Of a DNA stretch of 64,000 bases, positions 4,834 to 15,090 are shown piece after piece; position 1 is the first letter of the stretch; every line of letters begins with the position of its first letter. Location of the stretch: assembly GCF_022811725.1 (NCBI RefSeq), contig NZ_CP094527.1, positions 682,001 through 746,000 of the forward strand, read 5' to 3'. The notes below the pieces were generated by a model. It was not told the origin of the DNA, ran no database searches, and worked only from the letters and a program-made list of their open reading frames with translations. Source of the DNA: Mucilaginibacter sp. SMC90 (GTDB lineage: Bacteria > Bacteroidota > Bacteroidia > Sphingobacteriales > Sphingobacteriaceae). The position numbers and the translations under genes are program-made.

Positions 4834-5051
4834 AAGTCTCTTTATACTCAATAAATGTGACTGCAAGCGGCTCATATTAACGACTCCCCTTATTGAGCAC
4901 AGTTTTAAGATTGGCAGATAATTGTGCTGTTTTATACCAACCTGGCAATGATGTGTCCCTTTATACGTAAAATACTAAAAATATGTTCTACAAAACATGA
5001 ATAAAATGAACAATGAAACCACGGTGAAAGTATTTCTATTACTGGTTAAAA
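4834..5051. other. Leader region upstream of the giant surface protein
   Basis: This spacer between the start of the surface-protein gene (leftward) and the terminator of the DUF1398 gene must hold the surface-protein promoter. I see no convincing TTTG/TAnnTTTG pair on the minus strand and no other gene. Confidence 0.4.
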
Positions 5052-5082
5052 AAATGCCCGGTTAGGAAATAACCGGGCATTT
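5052..5082 (-). terminator. Intrinsic terminator of the DUF1398 gene
   Basis: Perfect 12-bp stem (AAATGCCCGGTT / AACCGGGCATTT) with a 7-nt loop. On the minus strand it is followed by a T tract, and it lies 24 bp past the stop codon of the DUF1398 gene. Confidence 0.85.
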
Positions 5083-5105
5083 TAAACTGCTTTTGATGAG
5101 ATACT

Positions 5106-5501
5106 TTATTCCACTTGCGGGATTGGTTCAGCAACCATTTCATTGTTTTCCGAATCGTAATAAATACAAAGCATCTTTTGTGTGTCAATCACCCACTTTT
5201 CAACCCCGGCTTCTGCCGCTTGTTTACAAAAAGTGATAAAATCTGTTAAGCCTTGCTGGTGAATTTTAATGGTATGTTGCAATTGTTCCGGAGAGGAGTT
5301 GTCGGCGATTTGTATCTGCGGATATTTGGGATCGCTGTTTACTTGATGTCCACTACTGCCGTAGTAAATGACCCTGCCGTTATCCACCCAAAATTCATAT
5401 TTCAGCAAACCGAGTTGTTTTATTTCCTTAATATATCCAGGGAAATCGGCCCCGGTTTTCACCCGGCTGTGTGCTTCTTTTAATTGTTGTTCTGTAAACA
5501 T
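5106..5501 (-). CDS. DUF1398 family protein
   Basis: Small soluble protein starting MFTEQQLKEAHSRVKTGADF. The family pattern is clear: an N-terminal helix, YIKEIKQLGL, the YYGSSGHQV segment, and a C-terminal GVEKWVIDTQKMLCIYYD block. The open frame extends 12 codons further upstream, but the MFTEQQ start matches the usual family N-terminus, so 5501 is preferred. The family (DUF1398, YbcV-like) has no assigned biochemical role. It lies 63 bp downstream of an AraC-type regulator gene on the same strand and may be cotranscribed with it. It ends in a strong terminator. Confidence 0.8.
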   Translation of the reverse strand: MFTEQQLKEAHSRVKTGADFPGYIKEIKQLGLLKYEFWVDNGRVIYYGSSGHQVNSDPKYPQIQIADNSSPEQLQHTIKIHQQGLTDFITFCKQAAEAGVEKWVIDTQKMLCIYYDSENNEMVAEPIPQVE

Positions 5502-5564
5502 AATCTTGCTTTTTCTATAAACAAAATTACCGGCCAAGCCCTATGGGGTATTGTAAAAAATCGT

Positions 5565-6344
5565 TCATTTATCTGCATAGCCTTGCTGTGCCTTCATATA
5601 CTGTTCGGGCGTAGTGCCGGTATGCGTTTTAAACTCCTTAATGAGATGTGCCTGATCATAATATCCTGCGGCATAAACTGCTTTTTGCCAGCCATCGGTC
5701 TTCAGTAACTCCAATGTGCTTTGAGCCCTCACAATGAGTGCAAACTTTTTAGGAGATGCGCCTACCACCTTTCTGAATCGCTTTTCGAGTGGACTTTGAC
5801 TGGTGTTGAGGTTACGGGCAAGGTCGGCTATTTTGATCACACCCTTATGCTGATAAATACCAGCTACAGCAGCGCTGACCAATTTATCTTCGCTACGCCC
5901 TATGAGATGACTGATAAGCAGCTGCTCAACAATGGCAATGCGCGCGGTATCATCATTGGCCATTGACAGCAATTCTTCTGTTTCACGGATAATGGTGCGG
6001 TCAAAAAAATGATCCAATGAAAGGCTTTCGTCAAAAAGCTCATTTACAGGTTGCCTTAAAAAATGCGAGGCCCCTGTTTCATTAAAAACAACCAGTATTG
6101 TACCAACGTTTGTTGTATTGCTGAAAGTTCGGTAACCATCCATTAAGCCGGTTATTCCGGTTGTTGCAAGCATGGTTTCAGTTCCGTTTTTTAAATAGGT
6201 TAACCTGCCTGTATACTGAAACCCCATTACCAGCGAAGTGCCGGGCAATACTTTATAAGTTTGGGCATCGCTATTTTCAGACACAACAAAGTGCTTAATA
6301 TAAGCTGCAAGCCTATGGCATGGCAAATAGCGTTGAAATTTCAT
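5565..6344 (-). CDS. AraC-family transcriptional regulator
   Basis: 259-residue protein. Residues 1-150 resemble the DUF6597-type N-terminal domain (CHRLAAYIKHFVVSEN, LPGTSLVMGFQYTG, FNETGASHFLRQP), presumed to sense a ligand. Residues about 160-255 are a C-terminal HTH_18 domain: KIADLARNLNTSQSPLEKRFRKVVGASPKKF, then AGYYDQAHLIKEFKTHTGTTPEQY, the canonical second helix-turn-helix. It sits between trpC and a DUF1398 gene. Whether it controls DUF1398 or a distant target cannot be read from the sequence. Confidence 0.88.
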   Translation of the reverse strand: MKFQRYLPCHRLAAYIKHFVVSENSDAQTYKVLPGTSLVMGFQYTGRLTYLKNGTETMLATTGITGLMDGYRTFSNTTNVGTILVVFNETGASHFLRQPVNELFDESLSLDHFFDRTIIRETEELLSMANDDTARIAIVEQLLISHLIGRSEDKLVSAAVAGIYQHKGVIKIADLARNLNTSQSPLEKRFRKVVGASPKKFALIVRAQSTLELLKTDGWQKAVYAAGYYDQAHLIKEFKTHTGTTPEQYMKAQQGYADK

Positions 6345-6388
6345 CCTTACCTGTAATATTATTTAAAGGTAAGGATTTGCCTGCACCG

Positions 6389-7171
6389 TTATAATAAAGC
6401 CACAAAATCGCGCATAGCTTGTCCGGGATCGGGCTGTTTCATGAAAGTTTCGCCAATGAGGAAACCATTGAAACCTTCCAGTTTTAAATGACGGATAGTT
6501 TCGGGGTCGCTGATGGCGCTTTCCGAGATTTTCATAAACTCAGCCGGGATATGTTTGGCCAGTTTATAAGAGGTTTCTACCGATACGGTAAAATCTGCCA
6601 GGTTGCGGTTGTTTACGCCTATGGCATCCAGGTTAGGGTTAATGCTCCGTTCCAGCTCTTCAAGGTTATGTACCTCAAGCAACACATTAAGCCCTATACT
6701 TTTGGCAAGTTTGGCCATAGTATCAATTTCGGCAGGGCTGAGTATGGCGGCTATCAGCAGGATGATATCAGCCCCTAATGATTTGGCTTCTATCACCTGG
6801 TATTCATCTATCATAAAATCCTTGCGCAATACAGGAATGTTATTTACAGAACGGGCCTTCAGCAAATCGGCCTTGCGGCCCATGAAAAAATTACGGTCGG
6901 TTAATACAGATAGCGCAGAAGCGCCTGCAGCGGCATAGTCGGTAGTAACAGCACTAACCCTCACCTTATCATTAATGATTCCCTTTGAGGGCGATTTACG
7001 TTTAAATTCGGCTATAATACCGGTACGTGCCGGATCAAGCAGAAAATCCTTAAATGAATAAGTATCACGGTGAAAATGTTCCGACTCTTCAAGTACGGTA
7101 TACGATGTGCGTTTTTTTGCCGAAGCAACTTCTTTTTTTTTATTGGCAACTATTTTATCAAGTATCGTCAT
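6389..7171 (-). CDS. trpC: Indole-3-glycerol phosphate synthase
   Basis: Converts 1-(2-carboxyphenylamino)-1-deoxyribulose 5-phosphate to indole-3-glycerol phosphate in tryptophan synthesis. From the preferred start (MTILDKIVANKKKEVA) it is 260 residues, the normal length. Visible family blocks are IIAEFKRKSPSKGII (catalytic Lys), VLTDRNFFMG, VLRKDFMIDEYQV, LLIAAIL, LLEVHNLEEL, IGVNNRNLADF and ISESAI, then GFLIGETFM. The frame stays open 30 codons upstream, but that extension runs through a palindromic repeat and matches nothing in the family. trpD, usually between trpG and trpC in this phylum, is not here. Confidence 0.95.
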   Translation of the reverse strand: MTILDKIVANKKKEVASAKKRTSYTVLEESEHFHRDTYSFKDFLLDPARTGIIAEFKRKSPSKGIINDKVRVSAVTTDYAAAGASALSVLTDRNFFMGRKADLLKARSVNNIPVLRKDFMIDEYQVIEAKSLGADIILLIAAILSPAEIDTMAKLAKSIGLNVLLEVHNLEELERSINPNLDAIGVNNRNLADFTVSVETSYKLAKHIPAEFMKISESAISDPETIRHLKLEGFNGFLIGETFMKQPDPGQAMRDFVALL

Positions 7172-7189
7172 AAAGCCTTTTACAATTAT

Positions 7190-7281
7190 GTCATTACGAG
7201 GAGGAACGACGAAGCAATCGCGAACTTTGCAGATCCTCTCTGTATAGTATGCGATTGCCACGCTATCGCTCGCAATGACAT
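7190..7281. repeat. Dispersed palindromic element (GTCATTGCGAG type)
   Basis: Arms begin GTCATTACGAGG and end CGCAATGAC, with inner GAAGCAATCGCGA and GCGATTGCCACGC blocks. This is one of several copies in the window (also near 10929, 19649, 50703, 50938, 58988). It fills the trpG-trpC spacer, where trpD would normally lie, and creates a spurious N-terminal extension of trpC. Confidence 0.8.
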
Positions 7282-7337
7282 ATTATTTTTACTTCTTTAA
7301 TAATCAAAGAAAACAAAGTTATCATTATTCCTTAAAA

Positions 7338-7910
7338 CTAAGCCTTTAGCCAGTTCCGCATCATTTCTTTACCGTAATCGGTCAGGATAGATTCAGGATG
7401 GAACTGTACGCCCCTTACATCGTACTGTTTGTGCTTAAGCGCCATGATAGAATTATCGGCCTCATCAATAGCAGTAACCTGCAATGAATCGGGCAGATCG
7501 GTTCCATTTACCACCCATGAATGGTAACGGCCAACTTTAAAGCTTTCAGGCAAGCCAACAAAAAGCTCCTCATCGCCATCAGTAACTTTTATAGGTGTGG
7601 CTATACCGTGCATAGGCTGGTTCAGGTTATACAGGCTGCCGCCAAATGCTTCGGCAATGGCCTGCTGACCAAGGCATACACCAAATATGCTTTTTGTAGG
7701 CGCGTACTTTTCTATCACTTCCAGTAACAAACCAGCCTCTGAAGGGATGCCCGGCCCCGGCGAAAGGATGATCTTATCAAAGGCGTCAACGTCTTCAATA
7801 GCAAACTGATCATTTCTCCAAACCTCGCACTCCAGGCCAAGCTCATTAACCAAATGCACCAGGTTATAGGTGAAAGAATCGTAATTATCTATTATTAAAA
7901 TATTTTTCAT
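7338..7910 (-). CDS. trpG: Anthranilate synthase component II (glutamine amidotransferase)
   Basis: Supplies ammonia from glutamine to TrpE. The start MKNILIIDNYDSFTYN gives 190 residues; an ATG seven codons upstream is less likely. The amidotransferase triad is visible: Cys in the nucleophile elbow FGVCLGQQAIAEAFGG, then His and Glu in VQFHPESILTDYG. Oxyanion-loop motif ILSPGPGIPSEAG. It lies directly downstream of trpE; the 53-bp spacer holds a short phrase repeat. trpC is the next gene downstream. Confidence 0.95.
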   Translation of the reverse strand: MKNILIIDNYDSFTYNLVHLVNELGLECEVWRNDQFAIEDVDAFDKIILSPGPGIPSEAGLLLEVIEKYAPTKSIFGVCLGQQAIAEAFGGSLYNLNQPMHGIATPIKVTDGDEELFVGLPESFKVGRYHSWVVNGTDLPDSLQVTAIDEADNSIMALKHKQYDVRGVQFHPESILTDYGKEMMRNWLKA

Positions 7911-7931
7911 GTCCGTTTTCTTAAAATTCAA

Positions 7932-7963
7932 CTAACCTCTTATCTCCAATCTCTAAACGCTAA
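7932..7963. repeat. Short phrase repeat between trpG and trpE
   Basis: Contains CTAACCTCT, ATCTCCAATCTCTAA and CGCTAA. It is the same phrase vocabulary (CTAACCTCTAATCTCTAA) seen as a fold-back at 21974-22101. Only one arm is present here. Confidence 0.5.
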
Positions 7964-9373
7964 TTACAACTCCTCCGCCAACTCAAAAGCCTTTCTTAAG
8001 GCCGAGATCTTGGTATCAACCTCGCGTAGTTCGCTTTCAGGTATGGAGCCGGCCACTATGCCTGCACCTGCCTGGTAATGCAGCGTATTGTTTTTGCTCA
8101 AAAATGAGCGGATCATAATGGCGTGGTTAAAATCGCCGTTAAAGCCCAGAAAACCAATAGCACCGCTATAAAAGCTGCGTTTAATGTTTTCGTTTTCGTC
8201 GATGATCTCCATAGCGCGATATTTAGGCGCGCCGCTGAGCGTACCTGCAGGGTAAGTATCGGCAACAACCTTAAATGCCGACGCGCCAGGCTTCAGCTTG
8301 CCGCTCACATGCGATACCAGGTGGATGAGGTGCGAATAATACTGAACTTCTTTAAATGCCTTAACGGTTACATTTTCACAATGCCGGCTCAGGTCATTAC
8401 GGGCTAAATCAACCAGCATTACATGCTCTGCCGACTCTTTTGGGTCGTTTTCCAGATTACGGGCCAGTTCTGCATCTTTCTCGTCGTCACCACTGCGCTT
8501 AAACGTTCCCGCTATCGGGAATATATTAGCTACGTTATTTTTAATGGTGATCTGCGCCTCGGGTGATGAACCGAAGATCCTGAAATCGCCAAAATCAAAA
8601 TAGAACAAGTAAGGTGATGGGTTGATAGACCGCAAGGCGCGGTAAACGTTAAATTCATCGCCCAGGAAGGTGCGCGAAAATGCTCTTGAAGGCACTATCT
8701 GAAAAACATCCCCCCGGTAAATGTGCTGCTTCATTTTTTCAACTATAGCAATGAACTCATCGCCGGTAAGGTTTGATTTTTCATCGCCATTACTTTTGAA
8801 GCTGTATTCCGGGAAATTTTTGTTTTTGATGAGATATTCCAGTTTTTCGATACCGCCGTTGGTTGGAGCGCCTTCAGGCTGATTATGGAAGATATAAAGT
8901 TCGTTTTTAAAGTGGTCGATAGCGATGATGTACCGGTAGATGTGGTACTGCATTACCGGGATCTTACGATCGGTATTATCGCTTTGCTTTAGTTTGATGG
9001 TTTCGTAATGCTCAACCGCTTCATGGGTAAAATAACCGAACAATCCATTGGTGATCATTTTCAGCGGCAGCGAATCAGTTTCAAAACTACCGATGAAACT
9101 ATTGATCTGCTCAATAAGATCGAACGTGCCGGGCTCATTTGTTTCATGACTGCCATCCGGGTACTGCTTTTTCAGTACACCATTGTTCAGCACAATGCCA
9201 CTCAGCGGTTCGCAGCAAATATAGCTGGTGCTGTTTTCGCGGCTGTGGTAGTCGGAACTTTCCAGCAGTAACGAATTTGGGAATATATCGCGCAGGCGAA
9301 GGTAAATGCTAACCGGTGTGGTGGTGTCGGCCAGCAGCTTTTTATAAGTGGTAGTGATCTTAAATGTGCTCAT
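7964..9373 (-). CDS. trpE: Anthranilate synthase component I
   Basis: Catalyses chorismate plus ammonia (from TrpG) to anthranilate, the first committed step to tryptophan. From ATG at 9373 (MSTFKITTTYKKLLADTTTP) it is 469 residues. The N-terminal domain carries LLESSDYH, the LLESS feedback-site motif. The chorismate-binding domain shows GDVFQIVPSRAF, SPYLFYFDFGDF, GSSPEAQ, PIAGTFKRSGD, LARNDLSRHC, HLVSHVSGKL, PAGTLSGAPKYRAMEIIDE and QAGAGIVAGSIPE. A frame extension to 9445 crosses the leader terminator and is judged not to be translated normally. Expression is probably controlled by the attenuator at 9396-9535. Confidence 0.95.
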   Translation of the reverse strand: MSTFKITTTYKKLLADTTTPVSIYLRLRDIFPNSLLLESSDYHSRENSTSYICCEPLSGIVLNNGVLKKQYPDGSHETNEPGTFDLIEQINSFIGSFETDSLPLKMITNGLFGYFTHEAVEHYETIKLKQSDNTDRKIPVMQYHIYRYIIAIDHFKNELYIFHNQPEGAPTNGGIEKLEYLIKNKNFPEYSFKSNGDEKSNLTGDEFIAIVEKMKQHIYRGDVFQIVPSRAFSRTFLGDEFNVYRALRSINPSPYLFYFDFGDFRIFGSSPEAQITIKNNVANIFPIAGTFKRSGDDEKDAELARNLENDPKESAEHVMLVDLARNDLSRHCENVTVKAFKEVQYYSHLIHLVSHVSGKLKPGASAFKVVADTYPAGTLSGAPKYRAMEIIDENENIKRSFYSGAIGFLGFNGDFNHAIMIRSFLSKNNTLHYQAGAGIVAGSIPESELREVDTKISALRKAFELAEEL

Positions 9374-9395
9374 CTTATTTTTTAAATGTCTTAAA

Positions 9396-9430
9396 ACAAA
9401 AAAACCCGGCGAATTGGGGTCGCCGGGTTT
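9396..9430 (-). terminator. trp attenuator terminator
   Basis: Stem AAACCCGGCG / CGCCGGGTTT (10 bp) with a 9-nt loop, followed on the minus strand by TTTTTTTG. It stands upstream of the trpE start, so it can only stop leader transcription. The 5' arm (CCGGC) can alternatively pair with GCCGG at 9482-9486 inside the leader peptide coding region, a candidate antiterminator. Confidence 0.88.
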
Positions 9431-9466
9431 CCTATTTAGGTTCACAATTGATTAGGTTGTCTCTGA

Positions 9467-9535
9467 TCAAAAAGCGCAAGCCGGCTGCCAATTTAGTTGG
9501 TGCCACCAGCTATTTTTATGTGTGTTTTTAATCAT
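9467..9535 (-). CDS. trpL: trp operon leader peptide (22 residues, three Trp)
   Basis: Short frame starting ATG at 9535 and ending TGA at 9467-9469, encoding MIKNTHKNSWWHQLNW followed by QPACAF. Two adjacent Trp codons and a third five codons later are far above chance in 22 residues. The frame is followed by a strong intrinsic terminator and then by trpE, the arrangement of a ribosome-stalling attenuator. When charged tRNA-Trp is scarce, stalling at the WW pair would leave GCCGG (9482-9486) free to pair with the terminator's 5' arm and permit trpE transcription. When the ribosome reaches the stop codon that segment is masked and the terminator forms. The gene is too short for routine gene finding. 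The mechanism is inferred from family precedent; the codons and hairpin are seen directly. Confidence 0.88.
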   Translation of the reverse strand: MIKNTHKNSWWHQLNWQPACAF

Positions 9536-9620
9536 CGCGGTCACAAATTTATAAAGAAATTTGAATTGTCAAATTTTTTGTGAAATTATTTCTTTGCTAA
9601 ATCCTATTAGCTACGTAGAA

Positions 9621-10046
9621 TTACTGTGGGATGAGCATAATACCTACCGCAATAAGCACAATTCCGATCAAATAGAAGATCGCGATAGCTTTATGCTTCG
9701 CCTCTGGCAGTGTTGCTTTTTTCGATTTGCTGTGCCCGATAGTGATCAGCGCGATGGCAATGATCATAATCACCCAGTGCTCAACCGTAAAATAACGGGT
9801 AATAGGATTTTTCATGGTATCCTTGCTAAACTGCACCATCGGACTGATAAAAAACAGGATGATGCCCAGCAGGAACTGTGTATGTACCGAGATCATGGCA
9901 AACAGGTTAAGCTTGCGGTTACCCTCGCCATAAGGTCTTTTGCCAAACCAGCCCATAAATGCGCGTACAAGGGCCAGCAATACCAATACAATAACAATGT
10001 ACCTGAAACCGGAATGAAATTCCTTAAAAAAGCTATAAAGTGTCAT
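9621..10046 (-). CDS. Four-helix integral membrane protein, conserved in Bacteroidota
   Basis: 141 residues with four hydrophobic segments: about 14-33 (FRYIVIVLVLLALVRAFMGW), 48-67 (LFAMISVHTQFLLGIILFFI), 88-104 (VEHWVIMIIAIALITIG) and 119-139 (IAIFYLIGIVLIAVGIML). Histidines occur in FHSGFRY, VHTQF, EHW and GHSK, which would suit heme or quinone contact, but no family signature proves this. Homologues are commonly left as hypothetical or cytochrome-b-like membrane proteins. It is the last gene before the trp leader and is separately transcribed or read into from upstream. Confidence 0.75.
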   Translation of the reverse strand: MTLYSFFKEFHSGFRYIVIVLVLLALVRAFMGWFGKRPYGEGNRKLNLFAMISVHTQFLLGIILFFISPMVQFSKDTMKNPITRYFTVEHWVIMIIAIALITIGHSKSKKATLPEAKHKAIAIFYLIGIVLIAVGIMLIPQ

Positions 10047-10260
10047 ACATCAAAATTTGCCGTGAATATACACATATCGGTCATTGAAGTCATTAGGGCA
10101 TTGTGTCATTTTTTTATATGGATGCCTTGATTTTGTGCAATACTTTCATTAAAACATGTTTAGTAGTTGGCTCGTGCGCGTGATGTGTGCTTTACAAGTC
10201 CGGTAACTCATGTATTGCATTTATCAGTATAGCTATTCAAGATGCGTGCTATAGCCTGAC

Positions 10261-10731
10261 TTATTTGCTCCGTTTATAAATGCAATGCTTGTTGAAAATA
10301 ACAGATGGCAAGCCTTTCCTTTCAATGAATTCTGTTTGTTCAACAGTGTGAAGTCGTTCTGAATTTAATTCGACAATGTCAAAATTCAGGTATCTCATTC
10401 TGATTGTATCCTTCTGAATTACTATAATATTGGGAATGAACGACAATGTAGCTATCGCTCTTTGGTTATTAATAGTGATTGCAAATCTCCCCTCCTCACT
10501 ACCCCCAACATCATCGTTCATCCCTTCGCGTGAGTACCGGAATCCCTCCTTTAAAATAAATTTACTAAAAGTGGTGGCTTTATAATATTTACCAGATGGG
10601 GTCGATGCGCTGTCTAATATCCAGGTACCAATTATCTTCTTATTTATCTTATCAGGTTCAGTTGAAGAAGAGCAAGAAAACAGGAGTTCCATCAAAATAA
10701 TTAGCAGAATATATTTAAATGAAGAAGCCAT
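10261..10731 (-). CDS. Lipocalin-like lipoprotein, unknown function
   Basis: 156 residues with an N-terminal lipoprotein signal (KYILLIILMELLFSCSSS; Cys about 20). The mature part begins KKIIGTWILDSAS, the GTW motif typical of small lipocalin-like domains, and continues as alternating beta strands (RFAITINNQRAIATLSF, NIIVIQKDTIRMRYLNFDIVEL). Probably anchored in an outer or inner membrane leaflet. No function can be assigned. It has no obvious operon partner; 214 bp separate it from the downstream membrane-protein gene. Confidence 0.75.
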   Translation of the reverse strand: MASSFKYILLIILMELLFSCSSSTEPDKINKKIIGTWILDSASTPSGKYYKATTFSKFILKEGFRYSREGMNDDVGGSEEGRFAITINNQRAIATLSFIPNIIVIQKDTIRMRYLNFDIVELNSERLHTVEQTEFIERKGLPSVIFNKHCIYKRSK

Positions 10732-10928
10732 GTTTTGATAATTATTGCTTTATATCGCCTTTTTCCTTCTTATTAGCATTTTTAGGCAGTTTGTAGCTGA
10801 TCCTAATATACCTAATTTAAACTCTCACGTGTAATAACATACCGAACTTAAGTTAAAAACTTAAGCTATTGTACACCACGGGTTACGTTATCGCTAAACC
10901 CGCGGCAGATACAGATGCAATTAAAAAT
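10732..10928. other. Gene-free spacer with a possible coding remnant
   Basis: A short minus-strand frame near 10742-10817 reads RYIRISYKLPKNANKKEKG then DIKQ-stop, preceded by a stop, with no start codon. It could be the tail of a decayed gene. A short perfect palindrome (CTTAAGTT-AAA-AACTTAAG) lies at 10847-10865. Nothing else is recognisable. Confidence 0.4.
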
Positions 10929-11040
10929 GTCATTGCGAGGAGCGGCAGAGGGTAGAGCGCGGCAGCGACGTGGCAATCTCATAGCCATGCATATCGAATT
11001 GTCATTGGATACGAGATTGCCACGCTACGGCTTAATGATA
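10929..11040. repeat. Dispersed palindromic element (GTCATTGCGAG type), degenerate
   Basis: Begins GTCATTGCGAGGAGCGGCAG, contains GACGTGGCAATCTC and its inverse GAGATTGCCACGC, and ends in a diverged CTTAATGAT arm. Same family as the copies at 7190, 19649 and 58988. Confidence 0.7.
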
Positions 11041-11054
11041 TAATTAGAAAAATT

Positions 11055-11139
11055 GTCATCCTGAGCGATAGCGAATGATCGTCTTCGATAAGCAAGGCGG
11101 CTATACAGGACGAAGAAGATGCTTCGTGCCTACCCATGA
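11055..11139. repeat. Dispersed palindromic element (GTCATCCTGAGCG type)
   Basis: Begins GTCATCCTGAGCGATAGCGA, has inner GATCGTCTTCG and CGAAGAAGATGC, and ends CCCATGAC. It is a related but distinct repeat class, placed next to the GTCATTGCGAG element. Confidence 0.65.
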
Positions 11140-11162
11140 CAAAGGGACAAAAACTACATAAA

Positions 11163-11196
11163 CAAAAAAAGCGATGAGCCTAAACCCATCGCTTTT
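11163..11196 (-). terminator. Intrinsic terminator of the pdh genes
   Basis: Stem AAAAGCGATG / CATCGCTTTT (10 bp) with a 10-nt loop and a T tract on the minus strand, 34 bp past the pdhC stop. Between it and the stop is a run of the phrase AAATCCGA / GAAATCGAAA (11197-11229). Confidence 0.8.
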
Positions 11197-11229
11197 CAAA
11201 ATCCGAAATCGAAAATCCGAGATCCGAAA

Positions 11230-12885
11230 TTATATCAGCAGCCTTACAGGCTCTTCTAATAATTGTTTTAACGTTTGCAGGTAGGCTGCAGCTGAAGCAC
11301 CATCAACCACGCGGTGGTCGGCGCTCAGGGTTACCTTCATGATGTTACCAGGTACTACGGCACCGTTTTTAACAACCGGTACAGCCTGGATCCCGCTTAC
11401 AGCAAGGATACATGCGTTAGGTGTGTTAATGATGGCTGTAAACTCGTCAACACCAAACATACCAAGGTTTGAGATGGTGAAGGTTGAGCCTTCCATTTCA
11501 TTTGGCTGCAGTTTTTTAGCTTTTGCTTTACCGGCAAACTCTTTCACTTCAACCGAAATGTGGCTTAATGATTTACCATCAGCAAATTTGATAACCGGAA
11601 CCAGCAAACCTTCGTCAACAGCAACAGCAACGCCGATGTGAACATGCTCGTTAGTTCGGATCTTATCGCCTAAGAATGATGAGTTGATTGCAGGGTGCTG
11701 CCTTAAGGCAACAGCGCAGGCTTTAACAACAAAATCGTTAAATGAAATTTTAACCGGGGCAATCTCATTCATGCGGGTACGGGCAGCAATAGCCTGATCC
11801 ATATCAATGGTCATGGTTACATAGAAATGCGGCGCAGTGAACAAGCTTTCGCTTAAGCGGCGGCTGATAGCTTTACGCATTTGAGTAACCGGCCTTTCGC
11901 TGAATTTCTCTTCGCCGGTAAAGGTTGGCAATACGATAGGTGCTTTTTCAGCAGCAGCCGGAGCGGCAGCAGGTGCAGCCTCAGCAGCCGGAGCCGCAGC
12001 TGGTTTAGCAGATGGTGTATATTCCTCAACATCTTTTTTGATGATACGGCCGCCATCAGCGCTACCTTTTACATCATTAAGGTTGATGCCTTTATCTTTA
12101 GCTATTTTACGTGCAAGCGGCGATGCTTTTACACGGCTGTCATCTGAAGATGAGCTTTCAGTAGCAGGTGCAGCAGCAGTTTCTTCTGTTTTAGCTTCAG
12201 CAGCAGGTGCAGCAGCTTCAGCGGCAGGGGCCGAACCACCATCCTGTAATAAAGGAGTGATATCAGTACCTTCTTTACCTACTATAGCAATAATGCCGTT
12301 TACTTGTGCGGCTTCGCCTTCTTTTACACCTATATATAATAAGGTACCGGCTTCATAACCCACAACTTCCATAGTAGCCTTATCGGTAGCCACATCAGCC
12401 AGTGAATCATCAGCTTTTACTTTATCGCCAACTTTAAAGTTCCATTTTTCGATGGTGCCTTCGGTCATGGTGTCACTCAGCAACGGCATACGGATCACCG
12501 TGGCCGGGATGCTTGACAGATCAACCTTTGGTGCAGCTGGTGCCGGAGTAGCGGCAGGTGCCTTATCGGCAGCGGGAGCTGCTTCTTTGGCCGGTTCTGC
12601 TGCAGCGCCGCTGCCAGCCTGATCAAGTAAGGGTTTGTAATCTTCGCCTTCTTTACCTAAAATGGCAATTACTGAATCAACCGGGGCAGCAGCGCCTTCC
12701 TGTATACCGATGTACAGCAATACGCCATCCTGGTACGATTCAAAATCCATGGTAGCTTTATCGGTTTCAATCTCGGCCAGTACATCGCCCGATTTAACCT
12801 TATCGCCAACTTTTTTATGCCATTTAGCCAATACCCCTTCGGTCATGGTATCGCTCATTTTAGGCATTTTTACTACTTCGGCCAT
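11230..12885 (-). CDS. pdhC: Pyruvate dehydrogenase complex E2, dihydrolipoyl acetyltransferase
   Basis: Forms the core of the PDH complex and transfers acetyl groups from lipoate to CoA. 551 residues. There are two lipoyl domains, each with a lipoylation ETDKATM/ATDKATM motif (Lys about 43 and 169). Ala/Pro-rich linkers separate them from an E3-binding domain (VKASPLARKIAKDKGINL, about 252-288) and the catalytic domain (about 330-551) with SFNDFVVKACAVAL, TFTISNLGMFGV and DHRVVDGASAA (catalytic His). It lies 136 bp downstream of pdhA on the same strand; the spacer is a phrase-repeat fold-back. The E1-beta gene is not in the window. Confidence 0.96.
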   Translation of the reverse strand: MAEVVKMPKMSDTMTEGVLAKWHKKVGDKVKSGDVLAEIETDKATMDFESYQDGVLLYIGIQEGAAAPVDSVIAILGKEGEDYKPLLDQAGSGAAAEPAKEAAPAADKAPAATPAPAAPKVDLSSIPATVIRMPLLSDTMTEGTIEKWNFKVGDKVKADDSLADVATDKATMEVVGYEAGTLLYIGVKEGEAAQVNGIIAIVGKEGTDITPLLQDGGSAPAAEAAAPAAEAKTEETAAAPATESSSSDDSRVKASPLARKIAKDKGINLNDVKGSADGGRIIKKDVEEYTPSAKPAAAPAAEAAPAAAPAAAEKAPIVLPTFTGEEKFSERPVTQMRKAISRRLSESLFTAPHFYVTMTIDMDQAIAARTRMNEIAPVKISFNDFVVKACAVALRQHPAINSSFLGDKIRTNEHVHIGVAVAVDEGLLVPVIKFADGKSLSHISVEVKEFAGKAKAKKLQPNEMEGSTFTISNLGMFGVDEFTAIINTPNACILAVSGIQAVPVVKNGAVVPGNIMKVTLSADHRVVDGASAAAYLQTLKQLLEEPVRLLI

Positions 12886-12933
12886 ATATTGATAGTATTA
12901 TAAATTCTGTATAAATATAGTTTGTTCTCAGTA

Positions 12934-13026
12934 TGAAGTCTAAAGTCTTAAGTTTTTAGTCTGAAGTCAGTGCTTAACTATAAGACTATCGGCTCTCGAC
13001 TTAGTACTTTCGACTTAAAACTTAGT
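12934..13026. repeat. Phrase fold-back between pdhC and pdhA
   Basis: Left arm GAAGTCTAAAGTCTTAAG...TAGTCTGAAGTC, right arm GACTATCGGCTCTCGACTTAG...TTCGACTTAAAACTTAG. The arms are imperfect inverted copies of an AAGTCTAAAGTC phrase, and the right arm runs into the pdhA stop codon. Confidence 0.6.
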
Positions 13027-14017
13027 CCCTGATATAAGGGTAATCTTCCTGAACATAAACATCTGTATATAATTCAGATGCATCAGGCCATGGTGATTCT
13101 TCAGCAAACTTAACCGCTTCGTCAACAATAGCTTTGATCTTAGCGTCCATTTCGTCAAACCATGCTTCATCAGCATATTTTTCAGTAATGATAGTTTGTT
13201 TGGTAACCTCAATAGGATCTTTTGCCTTGTAGCTTTCAAGCTCATCTTTTGTACGATACTTTTGCGGATCGGACATTGAGTGGCCTTTGTAACGGTAAGT
13301 ACGCATTTCAAGGAAGGTTGGGCCTTCGCCCGCACGTGCACGCTGAACAGCTTCATCCATTGCCACATGTACCGCAGCTGGGTCCATACCATCAACAGCC
13401 GATGAAGGGATACCATAAGGCAAGCCTAATTTGTAAATATCAGTTTGGATGGTGGTACGCTCAACAGAAGTACCCATAGCATAACCGTTGTTTTCGCAAA
13501 CAAAAATTACAGGAAGCTTCCAAAGTGCAGCCATGTTAAAAGTTTCGGTAAGTGCACCCTGGCGTACGGCACCATCGCCCATATAGGCAATGTTTACAAA
13601 CTCGGTGCCTTTATATTTTTCGGCAAAAGCTATACCGGCACCCAGTGGTACCTGGCCGCCTACTATACCGTGGCCACCATAAAAATGTTTTTCCTTATCA
13701 AACATGTGCATAGAACCACCTTTGCCTTTTGAGCAGCCGGTAGCTTTACCATACATCTCGGCCATAATGGCGTTTGGAGTTACACCTTTAGCAAGTGCGT
13801 GAGCATGATCGCGATATGCGGTGATCATACTGTCTTCAGGTTTAATTACAGACATTGCTCCGGCTAAAACAGCCTCCTGCCCAATATACAGGTGGCAAAA
13901 GCCCCTGATTTTTTGTTGTCCGTATAACTGTCCTGTTTTTTCTTCGAACCTGCGCATCAATAGCATCTGTTCGTACCACATCAGGTAGGTGTCCTTGTTT
14001 ATTTCGATTGAACTCAT
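13022..14017 (-). CDS. pdhA: Pyruvate dehydrogenase E1 component, alpha subunit
   Basis: Thiamine-diphosphate-dependent decarboxylation of pyruvate with transfer to lipoyl-E2; acts as an alpha2beta2 E1 with PdhB. 331 residues, normal length. The ThDP-binding motif GDGAVRQG...CENN spans about 147-177. GGSMHMFD and GHGIVGGQVPLGAG are also present, and the phosphorylation-loop-like region reads YRYKGHSMSDPQKYR. Transcribed leftward into pdhC. The adjacent E1-beta gene seen in many bacteria is absent, so pdhB must lie elsewhere, an arrangement I believe is common in this phylum. Confidence 0.96.
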   Translation of the reverse strand: MSSIEINKDTYLMWYEQMLLMRRFEEKTGQLYGQQKIRGFCHLYIGQEAVLAGAMSVIKPEDSMITAYRDHAHALAKGVTPNAIMAEMYGKATGCSKGKGGSMHMFDKEKHFYGGHGIVGGQVPLGAGIAFAEKYKGTEFVNIAYMGDGAVRQGALTETFNMAALWKLPVIFVCENNGYAMGTSVERTTIQTDIYKLGLPYGIPSSAVDGMDPAAVHVAMDEAVQRARAGEGPTFLEMRTYRYKGHSMSDPQKYRTKDELESYKAKDPIEVTKQTIITEKYADEAWFDEMDAKIKAIVDEAVKFAEESPWPDASELYTDVYVQEDYPYIRD

Positions 14018-14484
14018 GTATTAAACAACCTTTTTGGAGTAAAGCGCAAATCTAATTATATCCTGCAAAATATCGAAACCTCAAGCAAATTGTTGCAAAA
14101 TTTTATTTGGCTGCTTTTAGGCATGCCTTGCATCAATAAACCAACCTGTTATGGGATCAGCACAGTCAATTAAGCTAATTTAGAACTTAAAAAAACACAC
14201 CTTTGGGCAATAAATTATCGTTTTAGGAAGTTTTAGAAGGGTTGTTTTTATCTCAAAGCTCTTGAAAGGCCTTAAATAATTACAACCAAATTACATTGGA
14301 GATCGTACAAAAGTCTGTTTATTAAAAGGATGTGCAATAAAAAGCGCTTTTTTATATTTTTCGAAAAATAAGCTGCATTTATTTGCAATTTTAAAAAATA
14401 TAAATAGTTTTGTAGAGCAAGATAGACATAGTGTCTGATTTAATAAACAATTTGTTGCCCTAACACAACAAACAAACTGATTAA
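14018..14484. other. Divergent intergenic region between pdhA and the NlpC/P60 gene
   Basis: A 467-bp AT-rich spacer between divergently transcribed genes; it must hold both promoters. The rightward promoter candidate is listed separately. No RNA gene or further coding frame is apparent. Confidence 0.6.
14382..14412 (+). promoter_or_regulatory. Candidate Bacteroidota sigma-A promoter for the NlpC/P60 gene
   Basis: TTTG at 14382-14385, a 19-bp gap, then TAGTTTTG at 14405-14412. This matches the Bacteroidota consensus TTTG-N19-TAnnTTTG, 72 bp upstream of the start codon. Confidence 0.65.
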
Positions 14485-15090
14485 ATGAAGAAATTTGCCC
14501 TGGCTATTGCCTTACTTTTCAGCGTCGTAGCTTCACAAGCTCAAACCAAAAGTGCCCCGAGCGCAAGTGATGACAACAAAGACGACCAGGAAAGTTTAGG
14601 TAAAGCATACTTTTCCCAAATCATGGGAGTTGCTTTATCTGCTACCTCAAACATGAAACTCTTTCACTTTGTATACGATTGGATTGGTACCCCTTATCAT
14701 TTTGGCGGAAGCTCAAGAAGAGGTATCGACTGCTCGGCCTTTACAAAAGAATTATACAGCGAAGTTTTTAACCTTGACATTAAACGTAACTCACGTGATA
14801 TTTTCAGCATGGTTAACCCTGTTGCTAAAGATGAGTTAAAAGAAGGCGACTTGGTTTTCTTTAAGATCCACAGCCGCAGCATCTCGCACGTTGGTATTTA
14901 CTTAGGCAACAATAAATTTGCACATGCTTCATCAAGAGGTGTAGCTATCAGCAGCCTTGATGATGCTTACTACAGCCGTTTCTTTTATAAAGGGGGCAGG
15001 TTGTTAGCCTCGTTTAAAGATGAATTTAAAGGTTCGGCCTCCACAGGTAACAACGATATGGGCGACGACGTAGACGAAAGCAAGAACTAA
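14485..15090 (+). CDS. Secreted NlpC/P60 family cysteine peptidase
   Basis: Probably a peptidoglycan endopeptidase acting in the periplasm. 201 residues with a signal peptide (MKKFALAIALLFSVVASQAQ). The catalytic domain holds Cys83 in RRGIDCSAFTKELY, His135 in RSISHVGIYLGN and His147 in KFAHASSRGVAI, in the order expected for NlpC/P60. The preceding WIGTPYHFGGSS is the usual domain entry. A short acidic tail (NNDMGDDVDESKN) follows. It is a single-gene transcription unit with a good promoter upstream and a strong terminator 30 bp downstream. Confidence 0.93.
   Translation: MKKFALAIALLFSVVASQAQTKSAPSASDDNKDDQESLGKAYFSQIMGVALSATSNMKLFHFVYDWIGTPYHFGGSSRRGIDCSAFTKELYSEVFNLDIKRNSRDIFSMVNPVAKDELKEGDLVFFKIHSRSISHVGIYLGNNKFAHASSRGVAISSLDDAYYSRFFYKGGRLLASFKDEFKGSASTGNNDMGDDVDESKN

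Follow-up and report, generated by a model that had tools for sequence, protein, structure and literature searches.

The DNA directly upstream of trpE in Mucilaginibacter sp. SMC90 (RefSeq assembly GCF_022811725.1) carries a short Trp-rich reading frame followed by a GC-rich hairpin, which raises the question of how transcription into the trp genes is controlled at this locus. We examined it in a window of 64,000 nucleotides (the whole stretch of DNA analysed; contig NZ_CP094527.1, positions 682,001 to 746,000), to which the coordinates below refer, and in the corresponding regions of related genomes. Judging from these sequences, the element is very probably a transcription attenuator of the classical, ribosome-mediated kind that controls the trpE-trpG-trpC operon.

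The trp operon and the loci compared

The three genes of the operon follow one another in the order trpE-trpG-trpC (Table 1). The nearest named relatives of the trpE product are Mucilaginibacter proteins with 99% identity, and it scored 415.5 bits against TIGR00564, under the strict cut-off of 517.7. An in-frame GTG at 9445 would extend trpE through the terminator (window 9374-9445, minus strand), and a gene caller could choose it. We rejected this start, which is kept in only 3 of the 69 loci of the genus, the other 66 carrying A in place of its second G. Upstream of the leader lies a gene for a probable membrane protein of 141 aa (9621-10046, minus strand) without a Pfam or NCBIfam match; by eye, similar frames precede trpE in other genera (e.g. 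L081 and L084).

For comparison, trpE was found in 284 of 301 Sphingobacteriaceae genomes. We first selected 110 loci from the upper part of this list, of which some rows were skipped: 69 belong to the same genus, counting the window genome, and 41 to other genera. A later extension comprised 30 loci of mainly lower-listed genera, 39 outside the family but within its class, and 5 from more distant Bacteroidota. Paired cells and two-sided changes of the helices were counted on the alignment of the 69 loci of the genus. As an independent set we used 80 named records, nearly all Mucilaginibacter, with a rule that takes a fixed 260-nt window and a loose logical order and misses one terminator spelling; 78 of the 80 passed, including 42 of the 44 that were new. 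The two failing records, L278 and L304, both possess a leader and a terminator, which sit farther upstream in L278, while the terminator of L304 reads GGGTCTTTT.

Table 1 Features of the trpE operon and its leader region in the window.
Feature	Position	Strand	Basis or remark
trpE, anthranilate synthase component I	7964..9373	minus	PF04715 and PF00425 over cut-off
trpG, anthranilate synthase glutamine amidotransferase	7338..7910	minus	TIGR00566 over cut-off
trpC, indole-3-glycerol phosphate synthase	6389..7171	minus	NF001377 over cut-off
-33 promoter element TTTG	9570..9573	minus	sequence; 18 nt from the -7 box
-7 promoter element TAAATTTG	9544..9551	minus	sequence; perfect TAnnTTTG
Predicted transcription start	9538..9539	minus	inferred from published start-site spacing; 5' UTR 3-4 nt
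Leader peptide ORF, MIKNTHKNSWWHQLNWQPACAF and stop	9467..9535	minus	translation; 22 codons; W at codons 10, 11 and 16
Tandem Trp codons TGGTGG, regulatory	9503..9508	minus	kept in 69/69 loci of the genus
1:2 hairpin hiding segment 2	9483..9504	minus	9504-9502 with 9485-9483; 9500-9497 with 9491-9488
Segment 2, GCCGG, anti-terminator strand	9481..9485	minus	pairs with 9426-9422
Conserved block AATCAATTGTGAACCTA	9437..9453	minus	between leader and terminator
Segment 3, AAACCCGGCGA, terminator 5' arm and anti-terminator partner	9420..9430	minus	CCGG invariant in 69/69 loci of the genus
Terminator loop	9413..9419	minus	sequence
Segment 4, TCGCCGGGTTT, terminator 3' arm	9402..9412	minus	compensatory changes with segment 3
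Terminator T tract	9398..9404	minus	first three T also pair in segment 4

A conserved Trp leader frame precedes trpE

The initial annotation had described a 22-codon frame with a Trp pair and a third Trp codon, and the frame translates as described. Within the genus, TGGTGG is in frame and unchanged in all 69 aligned loci. The third Trp codon (codon 16), which adjoins segment 2, did not hold up as a feature of the leader: it is not conserved, and the same TGGCAG stands out of frame in many relatives.

At least two Trp codons were present in the leader ORF of 109 of the 110 Sphingobacteriaceae loci, the remaining one (L071) having a single Trp codon. The cluster varies by genus: WW in Mucilaginibacter, WLW or WQW in g14, WWW or WW in g18 and g21, WWW in most genera represented by one locus, WCW in g22 and a single W at the cluster position in g3. 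Across the Bacteroidota loci tested, a Trp-rich leader, defined as an ORF of 9-45 aa with WW or W.W inside the last 280 nt before trpE, was found on the sense strand in 180 of 184. The same rule was satisfied by 1 of 184 antisense regions, 2 of 184 regions farther upstream and about 1.5% of Markov shuffles. The four loci that fail it are three of g3 and L203, whose WWW leader begins 287 nt upstream.

We also measured distances blind to the frame. The distance from the first ATG past the -7 box to TGGTGG is a multiple of three in 69 of 69 loci of the genus (27, 30 and 36 nt in 62, 6 and 1 loci, respectively), and this frame is also kept in 79 of the 79 named records where it was measured. From TGGTGG to segment 2, the distance leaves a remainder of 0, 1 or 2 in 42, 11 and 16 of the 69 loci. 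Since the first distance is always a multiple of three and the second is spread over all phases, translation appears to matter up to the Trp pair and RNA structure after it. Past that pair, relatives read the peptide in differing phases (WQP., LAAG, GSR.), so the C-terminal half seems not to be selected as protein.

Competing pairings involve the leader and the terminator

The GC-rich hairpin with a T tract that had been noted before trpE is present, with the trpE ATG (9373) 24 nt past the T tract. The hairpin alone is not decisive, because a terminator scan of positions 5000-14500 returned nine sites, of which this one was listed first, against a mean of 9.8 in shuffles; the comparative evidence decides. 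A hairpin with T tract follows the leader in 110 of 110 loci by a permissive finder, and among the further loci the same finder detected a terminator in 72 of 73, 71 of them below -8 kcal/mol (none in L207, a weak one in L169, L203 unscored). In the 69 loci of the genus, 97.0% of the cells of the terminator helix (3:4) are paired, and two-sided changes occur in 5 of 9 pairs (11 cells), a result reached by 0 of 500 shuffles, a count that overstates independence because the loci share ancestry, as do the other shuffle counts on this alignment.

The best supported helix is a further hairpin, 1:2 (GGC.CCAA/UUGG.GCC), which overlaps the regulatory Trp codons, which was absent from the initial annotation and which explains why a stall at the Trp pair would free segment 2. 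Within the genus 91.6% of its cells are paired, a level reached by 0 of 500 shuffles. Its 61 cells with two-sided changes and its covariation score were likewise each reached by 0 of 500. These changes fall in 6 of 9 pairs, and as 43 of 500 shuffles match this, that measure is not extreme. Slid registers drop to 17-52% paired. Over the 110 loci, the energy of the 1:2 region averages 1.4 standard deviations below shuffles (control windows, -0.05), being weak in several genera. The fold of 9370-9560 as a whole beats 197 of 200 shuffles and is equalled by the other 3 (z = -2.37).

The anti-terminator pairing of GCCGG with CCGGC of the terminator 5' arm, which the initial annotation had proposed, stood, but its position did not: GCCGG lies at 9485-9481 rather than 9482-9486. 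The core of this 2:3 helix is paired in 97.4% of cells in the genus and competes with the terminator. Within these 69 loci no covariation was found in 2:3, since both strands hardly vary. Changes in the terminator affect segment 4 rather than segment 3, which is what two partners for segment 3 would lead one to expect: two neighbouring pairs account for 17 deviating cells in segment 4, whereas CCGG of segment 3 is kept in 69 of 69 loci. Comparison of the genera shows joint changes of segments 2, 3 and 4, as in g18 (TCGG with CCGA) and in two loci of g14 (GTCTA.GTCG with CGAC.TAGAC).

We also compared the native 2:3 pairing with pairings to segment 3 of other genera. The native pairing was stronger in 8 of 13 genera, including all four with at least five loci, with native against swapped values of -13.6 and -10.1 kcal/mol in Mucilaginibacter (g1), -14.9 and -11.7 in g14, -10.7 and -7.7 in g18, and -13.4 and -11.4 in g21. 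Among the smaller genera it was stronger in four of nine (g2, g22, g4 and, barely, g13), and the result went against it in g3, g12, g10, g20 and g25 (3, 1, 1, 1 and 1 loci). On these sequences, the evidence between genera for 2:3 can be called good in 8 of 13.

The spacing of the segments is compatible with attenuation. Counted from where the last regulatory Trp codon begins, segment 2 starts 13-26 nt on, and at least 14 nt on in 109 of 110 loci, so that a ribosome stalled there would leave segment 2 free. If an assumed footprint is applied, segment 2 would be covered by a ribosome standing at the stop codon in 70 of 110 loci. For the remaining 40, whose stop codon is too far downstream, the model depends on 1:2 reforming behind the ribosome.

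The initial annotation held that its reading would fall if relatives lacked the Trp codons or the terminator. The alignments of relatives that it had called for show Trp codons, terminator and competing pairings all retained, which supports the attenuator interpretation.

A conserved block lies between leader and terminator

The AACC of the block AATCAATTGTGAACCTA is invariant in 69 of 69 loci of the genus. AAACC was found in the spacer between leader and terminator of 92 of 110 loci, where Markov shuffles average 12; kinship inflates this count. The single loci of g2, g4, g10, g12, g20 and g25 lack it, g22 reads AACCTAA, and a similar motif appears in merely 18 of the 73 further loci. We therefore regard the block as a feature of part of the family. 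The AACC count in the 80 named records was left unused, as it may match the terminator arm.

No pairing partner for the block was found. Pairing of AAACC with GGUUU of the terminator 3' arm was rejected because the block stays where the arm differs: the arm reads GGGCUUU or GGAUUU in L032, L070 and 12 of 13 loci of g14, yet AAACC or AACC is kept. A genome-wide search for copies of the block, with at most two mismatches allowed, found 17 places; the reversed pattern was found at 8, and we take the likeness as chance. Three of the 17 are copies of one hairpin-bearing repeat (L222, L223 and L225, near position 1500 of each) without a tRNA or Rfam match. Its hairpin arms vary between copies around CTGATGGGCAG, followed by CTAACCAATTATAAACCTAAATTATGAGAAGA, and by eye tRNA-like fragments adjoin two of the copies.

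The leader start codon is predicted to lie at the 5' end of the transcript

The promoter consensus of Bacteroidota is TTTG/TAnnTTTG (PMC6847099, PMC7366714). Transcription starts 4-5 nt past the -7 box in Flavobacterium johnsoniae (PMC6847099), and the box lies at -12 to -5 in F. psychrophilum (PMC9723704). From the perfect match to this promoter ahead of the leader, we infer that transcription of trpE starts upstream of 9400; a start downstream of that position is what the initial annotation had named as counter-evidence.

Under two rules combined, 137 of 140 Sphingobacteriaceae loci have a -7-like box 3-13 nt ahead of the start codon of the leader. For the first 110 loci the box was T[AT]nn(n)TTTG and was found at 3-13 nt in 110 of 110, with a rule that favours short gaps, as the start codon was picked among those with a box within 24 nt. 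The strict form TAnnTTTG was present at up to 24 nt in 105 of 110. In the 30 added loci, under a slightly looser rule, the box lies at 4-10 nt in 27, and TTTG alone at 5 nt in 3. For the frame-blind part and the named records the first ATG after the box was taken instead, and the gap was 7-13 nt in 79 of the 80 named records. Such spacing implies a near-leaderless mRNA.

Outside the Sphingobacteriaceae, the gap in 18 loci of family f4, probably Flavobacteriaceae, measures 16-20 nt in 12 and 4-11 nt in 6. The other 26 loci of other families have the box at 4-10 nt in 10 and at 16-21 nt in 3, with TTTG alone at 5-19 nt in 5 and no box in 8. Among 48 mechanical ORFs examined in the window, a box lies within 13 nt in 1 of the 8 long ORFs that have one within 120 nt. 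Short 5' leaders of this kind are rare in Bacteroidota: leaderless starts make up 5.5% in F. psychrophilum (PMC9723704), and 5' leaders under 10 nt make up 3.7% in B. thetaiotaomicron (PMC7366714).

Two other leaders of this genome start farther from a box, the his leader at 32 nt and that of a second trp operon at 15 nt from an imperfect one, so the short spacing is a property of the trpE leader and not of all leaders. This second operon, trpD-(trpF::trpB fusion)-trpA (L117, G000:C1:5664500-5674500, minus strand, upstream of 6806), has the leader MNKLNNNWWWLNE with WWW and the terminator GGGTTGCC/GGCAACCC with a T tract. The gene hisG (L118, 3966, minus strand) is preceded by the His leader MNGIALHHLHLHHHHVVIS with seven His codons and by the hairpin ATCACCAC/GTGGTGAT, with no T tract visible right after it before hisG. 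Ahead of pheA (L119, 3680, minus strand) lies the Phe/Tyr-rich leader MKLTGAYFFGYYFYFTSKSRD and then the terminator AAAAAGTCCCGGC/GCCGGGACTTTTT. Each of these three frames closes with a stop codon.

Proposed mechanism and rival explanations

In the mechanism that we propose, RNA polymerase would start 3-4 nt ahead of the leader AUG, and a ribosome would begin the leader peptide at once. When charged Trp-tRNA is scarce, the ribosome would stall at the Trp pair and cover the 5' arm of 1:2, leaving segment 2 (GCCGG) free for segment 3 (CCGGC); with 2:3 formed, the terminator would be blocked and trpE transcribed. When Trp is plentiful, the ribosome would reach the stop codon and cover segment 2 or, where the stop codon lies farther on, allow 1:2 to reform behind it. 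With segment 2 unavailable, segments 3 and 4 would pair and transcription would end at the T tract. Without translation 1:2 would form as well, with the same outcome.

The hairpin might instead be a mere terminator of the upstream 141-aa gene, and the Trp frame a chance ORF. That gene has the same orientation as the hairpin, terminator-like sites are no commoner here than in shuffles, and the leader ORF has no classical start signal, which is explained by the lack of Shine-Dalgarno sequences in Bacteroidota (PMC6847099). Against this stand a perfect promoter between the 141-aa gene and the leader, the excess of sense over antisense Trp leaders, the frame kept in every locus of the genus and the compensatory changes of the 1:2 helix. 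Together these make a chance origin extremely improbable. We give just as little credence to a Trp-binding protein or metabolite (TRAP, a riboswitch or a T-box) choosing the hairpin in place of the ribosome. The AAACCTA block could be a protein site, but what is conserved is a set of in-frame tandem Trp codons. Moreover, profile searches of the genome gave no match to the Trp repressor (PF01371) and none to TRAP (PF02081), the latter profile matching in the Bacillus subtilis control, and no Rfam family matched in the window at its gathering score.

The leader peptide may also act in trans, beside or instead of attenuation, like peTrpL of Sinorhizobium (PMC7298713). Plentiful Trp would be expected to give an excess of terminated leader RNA and peptide, which suits such a role; however, the differing phases in which the C-terminal half is read do not look like selection on a protein, and we hold a trans-acting peptide to be very unlikely, if slightly less so than the other two explanations. 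More tentatively, and with more doubt than belief, we suggest that a near-leaderless start may be built into the trpE attenuator of the Sphingobacteriaceae type, the ribosome loading without a Shine-Dalgarno sequence as the RNA emerges and staying tightly coupled to the polymerase, and that AAACCTA may act in cis as a further element, for pausing or for binding, and set the timing of the hairpin choice.

Relation to known attenuators

The enterobacterial trp attenuators of the Yanofsky model comprise tandem Trp codons, the pairings 1:2, 2:3 and 3:4 and an intrinsic terminator. The present element shares all of these, and it differs in its predicted 3-4 nt 5' UTR and in the absence of a TrpR match. 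The window scores 17.7 bits against the Rfam model RF00513 (Trp_leader), whose gathering score is 41. Other Rfam matches (STnc180, Qrr and others) were discarded, as they fall below their gathering scores and reflect the hairpin with its T tract.

The Rfam element of Bacteroidota is RF01692, Bacteroid-trp (Weinberg et al. 2010, PMC2864571). At an E-value of 0.01 and with stricter filters it matched 20 of 198 Bacteroidota genomes, 15 over the cut-off and 18 of the 20 in family f4, and the control genome of Bacteroides ihuae was matched as well. In all 18 matches in f4 and one in family f5, a trpE-like gene is preceded by a leader ORF with WWW, and the 18 trpE loci tested in f4 also carry a terminator, in likeness to the element here. 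The terminator sequence, the leader and the spacing are nevertheless unlike those of the Mucilaginibacter element. RF01692 (at least 49 bits) gave no match in the window, neither at its gathering score nor at E up to 10, none in 20 diverse Sphingobacteriaceae loci at E up to 1, and none in the SMC90 genome. Its sole match in the family, below the cut-off, is a leader related to that of the second trp operon, in g14 (L140).

Leaderless Trp-rich leaders are known elsewhere. Streptomyces lividans trpL1 precedes trpE with a terminator (PMC8079986), as proposed here, and the gGCC-rGCy-GGCC triple of actinobacterial trp attenuators (PMC1262725) resembles GCC-GGC-GCC of the present locus. Streptomyces differs in phylum and promoter type, and leaderless starts are reported there at 17% (PMC8079986) as against the 5.5% of F. 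psychrophilum (PMC9723704). In F. psychrophilum itself, leader peptide attenuation has been reported upstream of amino acid operons from transcript maps (PMC9723704), so the phylum and the proposed mechanism are the same and the family is another; the work of Lopatovskaya et al. 2010, cited in PMC4833913, may cover Bacteroidetes as well. Given RF01692, attenuation in F. psychrophilum and the leaderless trpL of Streptomyces, we regard the finding as real and ordinary in kind. New here are the comparative proof for Sphingobacteriaceae, the near-leaderless start and the AAACCTA block.

Implications for the Bacteroidota

A Trp leader peptide precedes nearly every sampled trpE of the Bacteroidota, a phylum without Shine-Dalgarno sequences, and the public RNA model RF01692 covers just part of these leaders. 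Since the mRNA seems to begin almost at the start codon, the trpE leader of the Sphingobacteriaceae would be a good place to ask how a ribosome loads fast enough for attenuation without a Shine-Dalgarno sequence.
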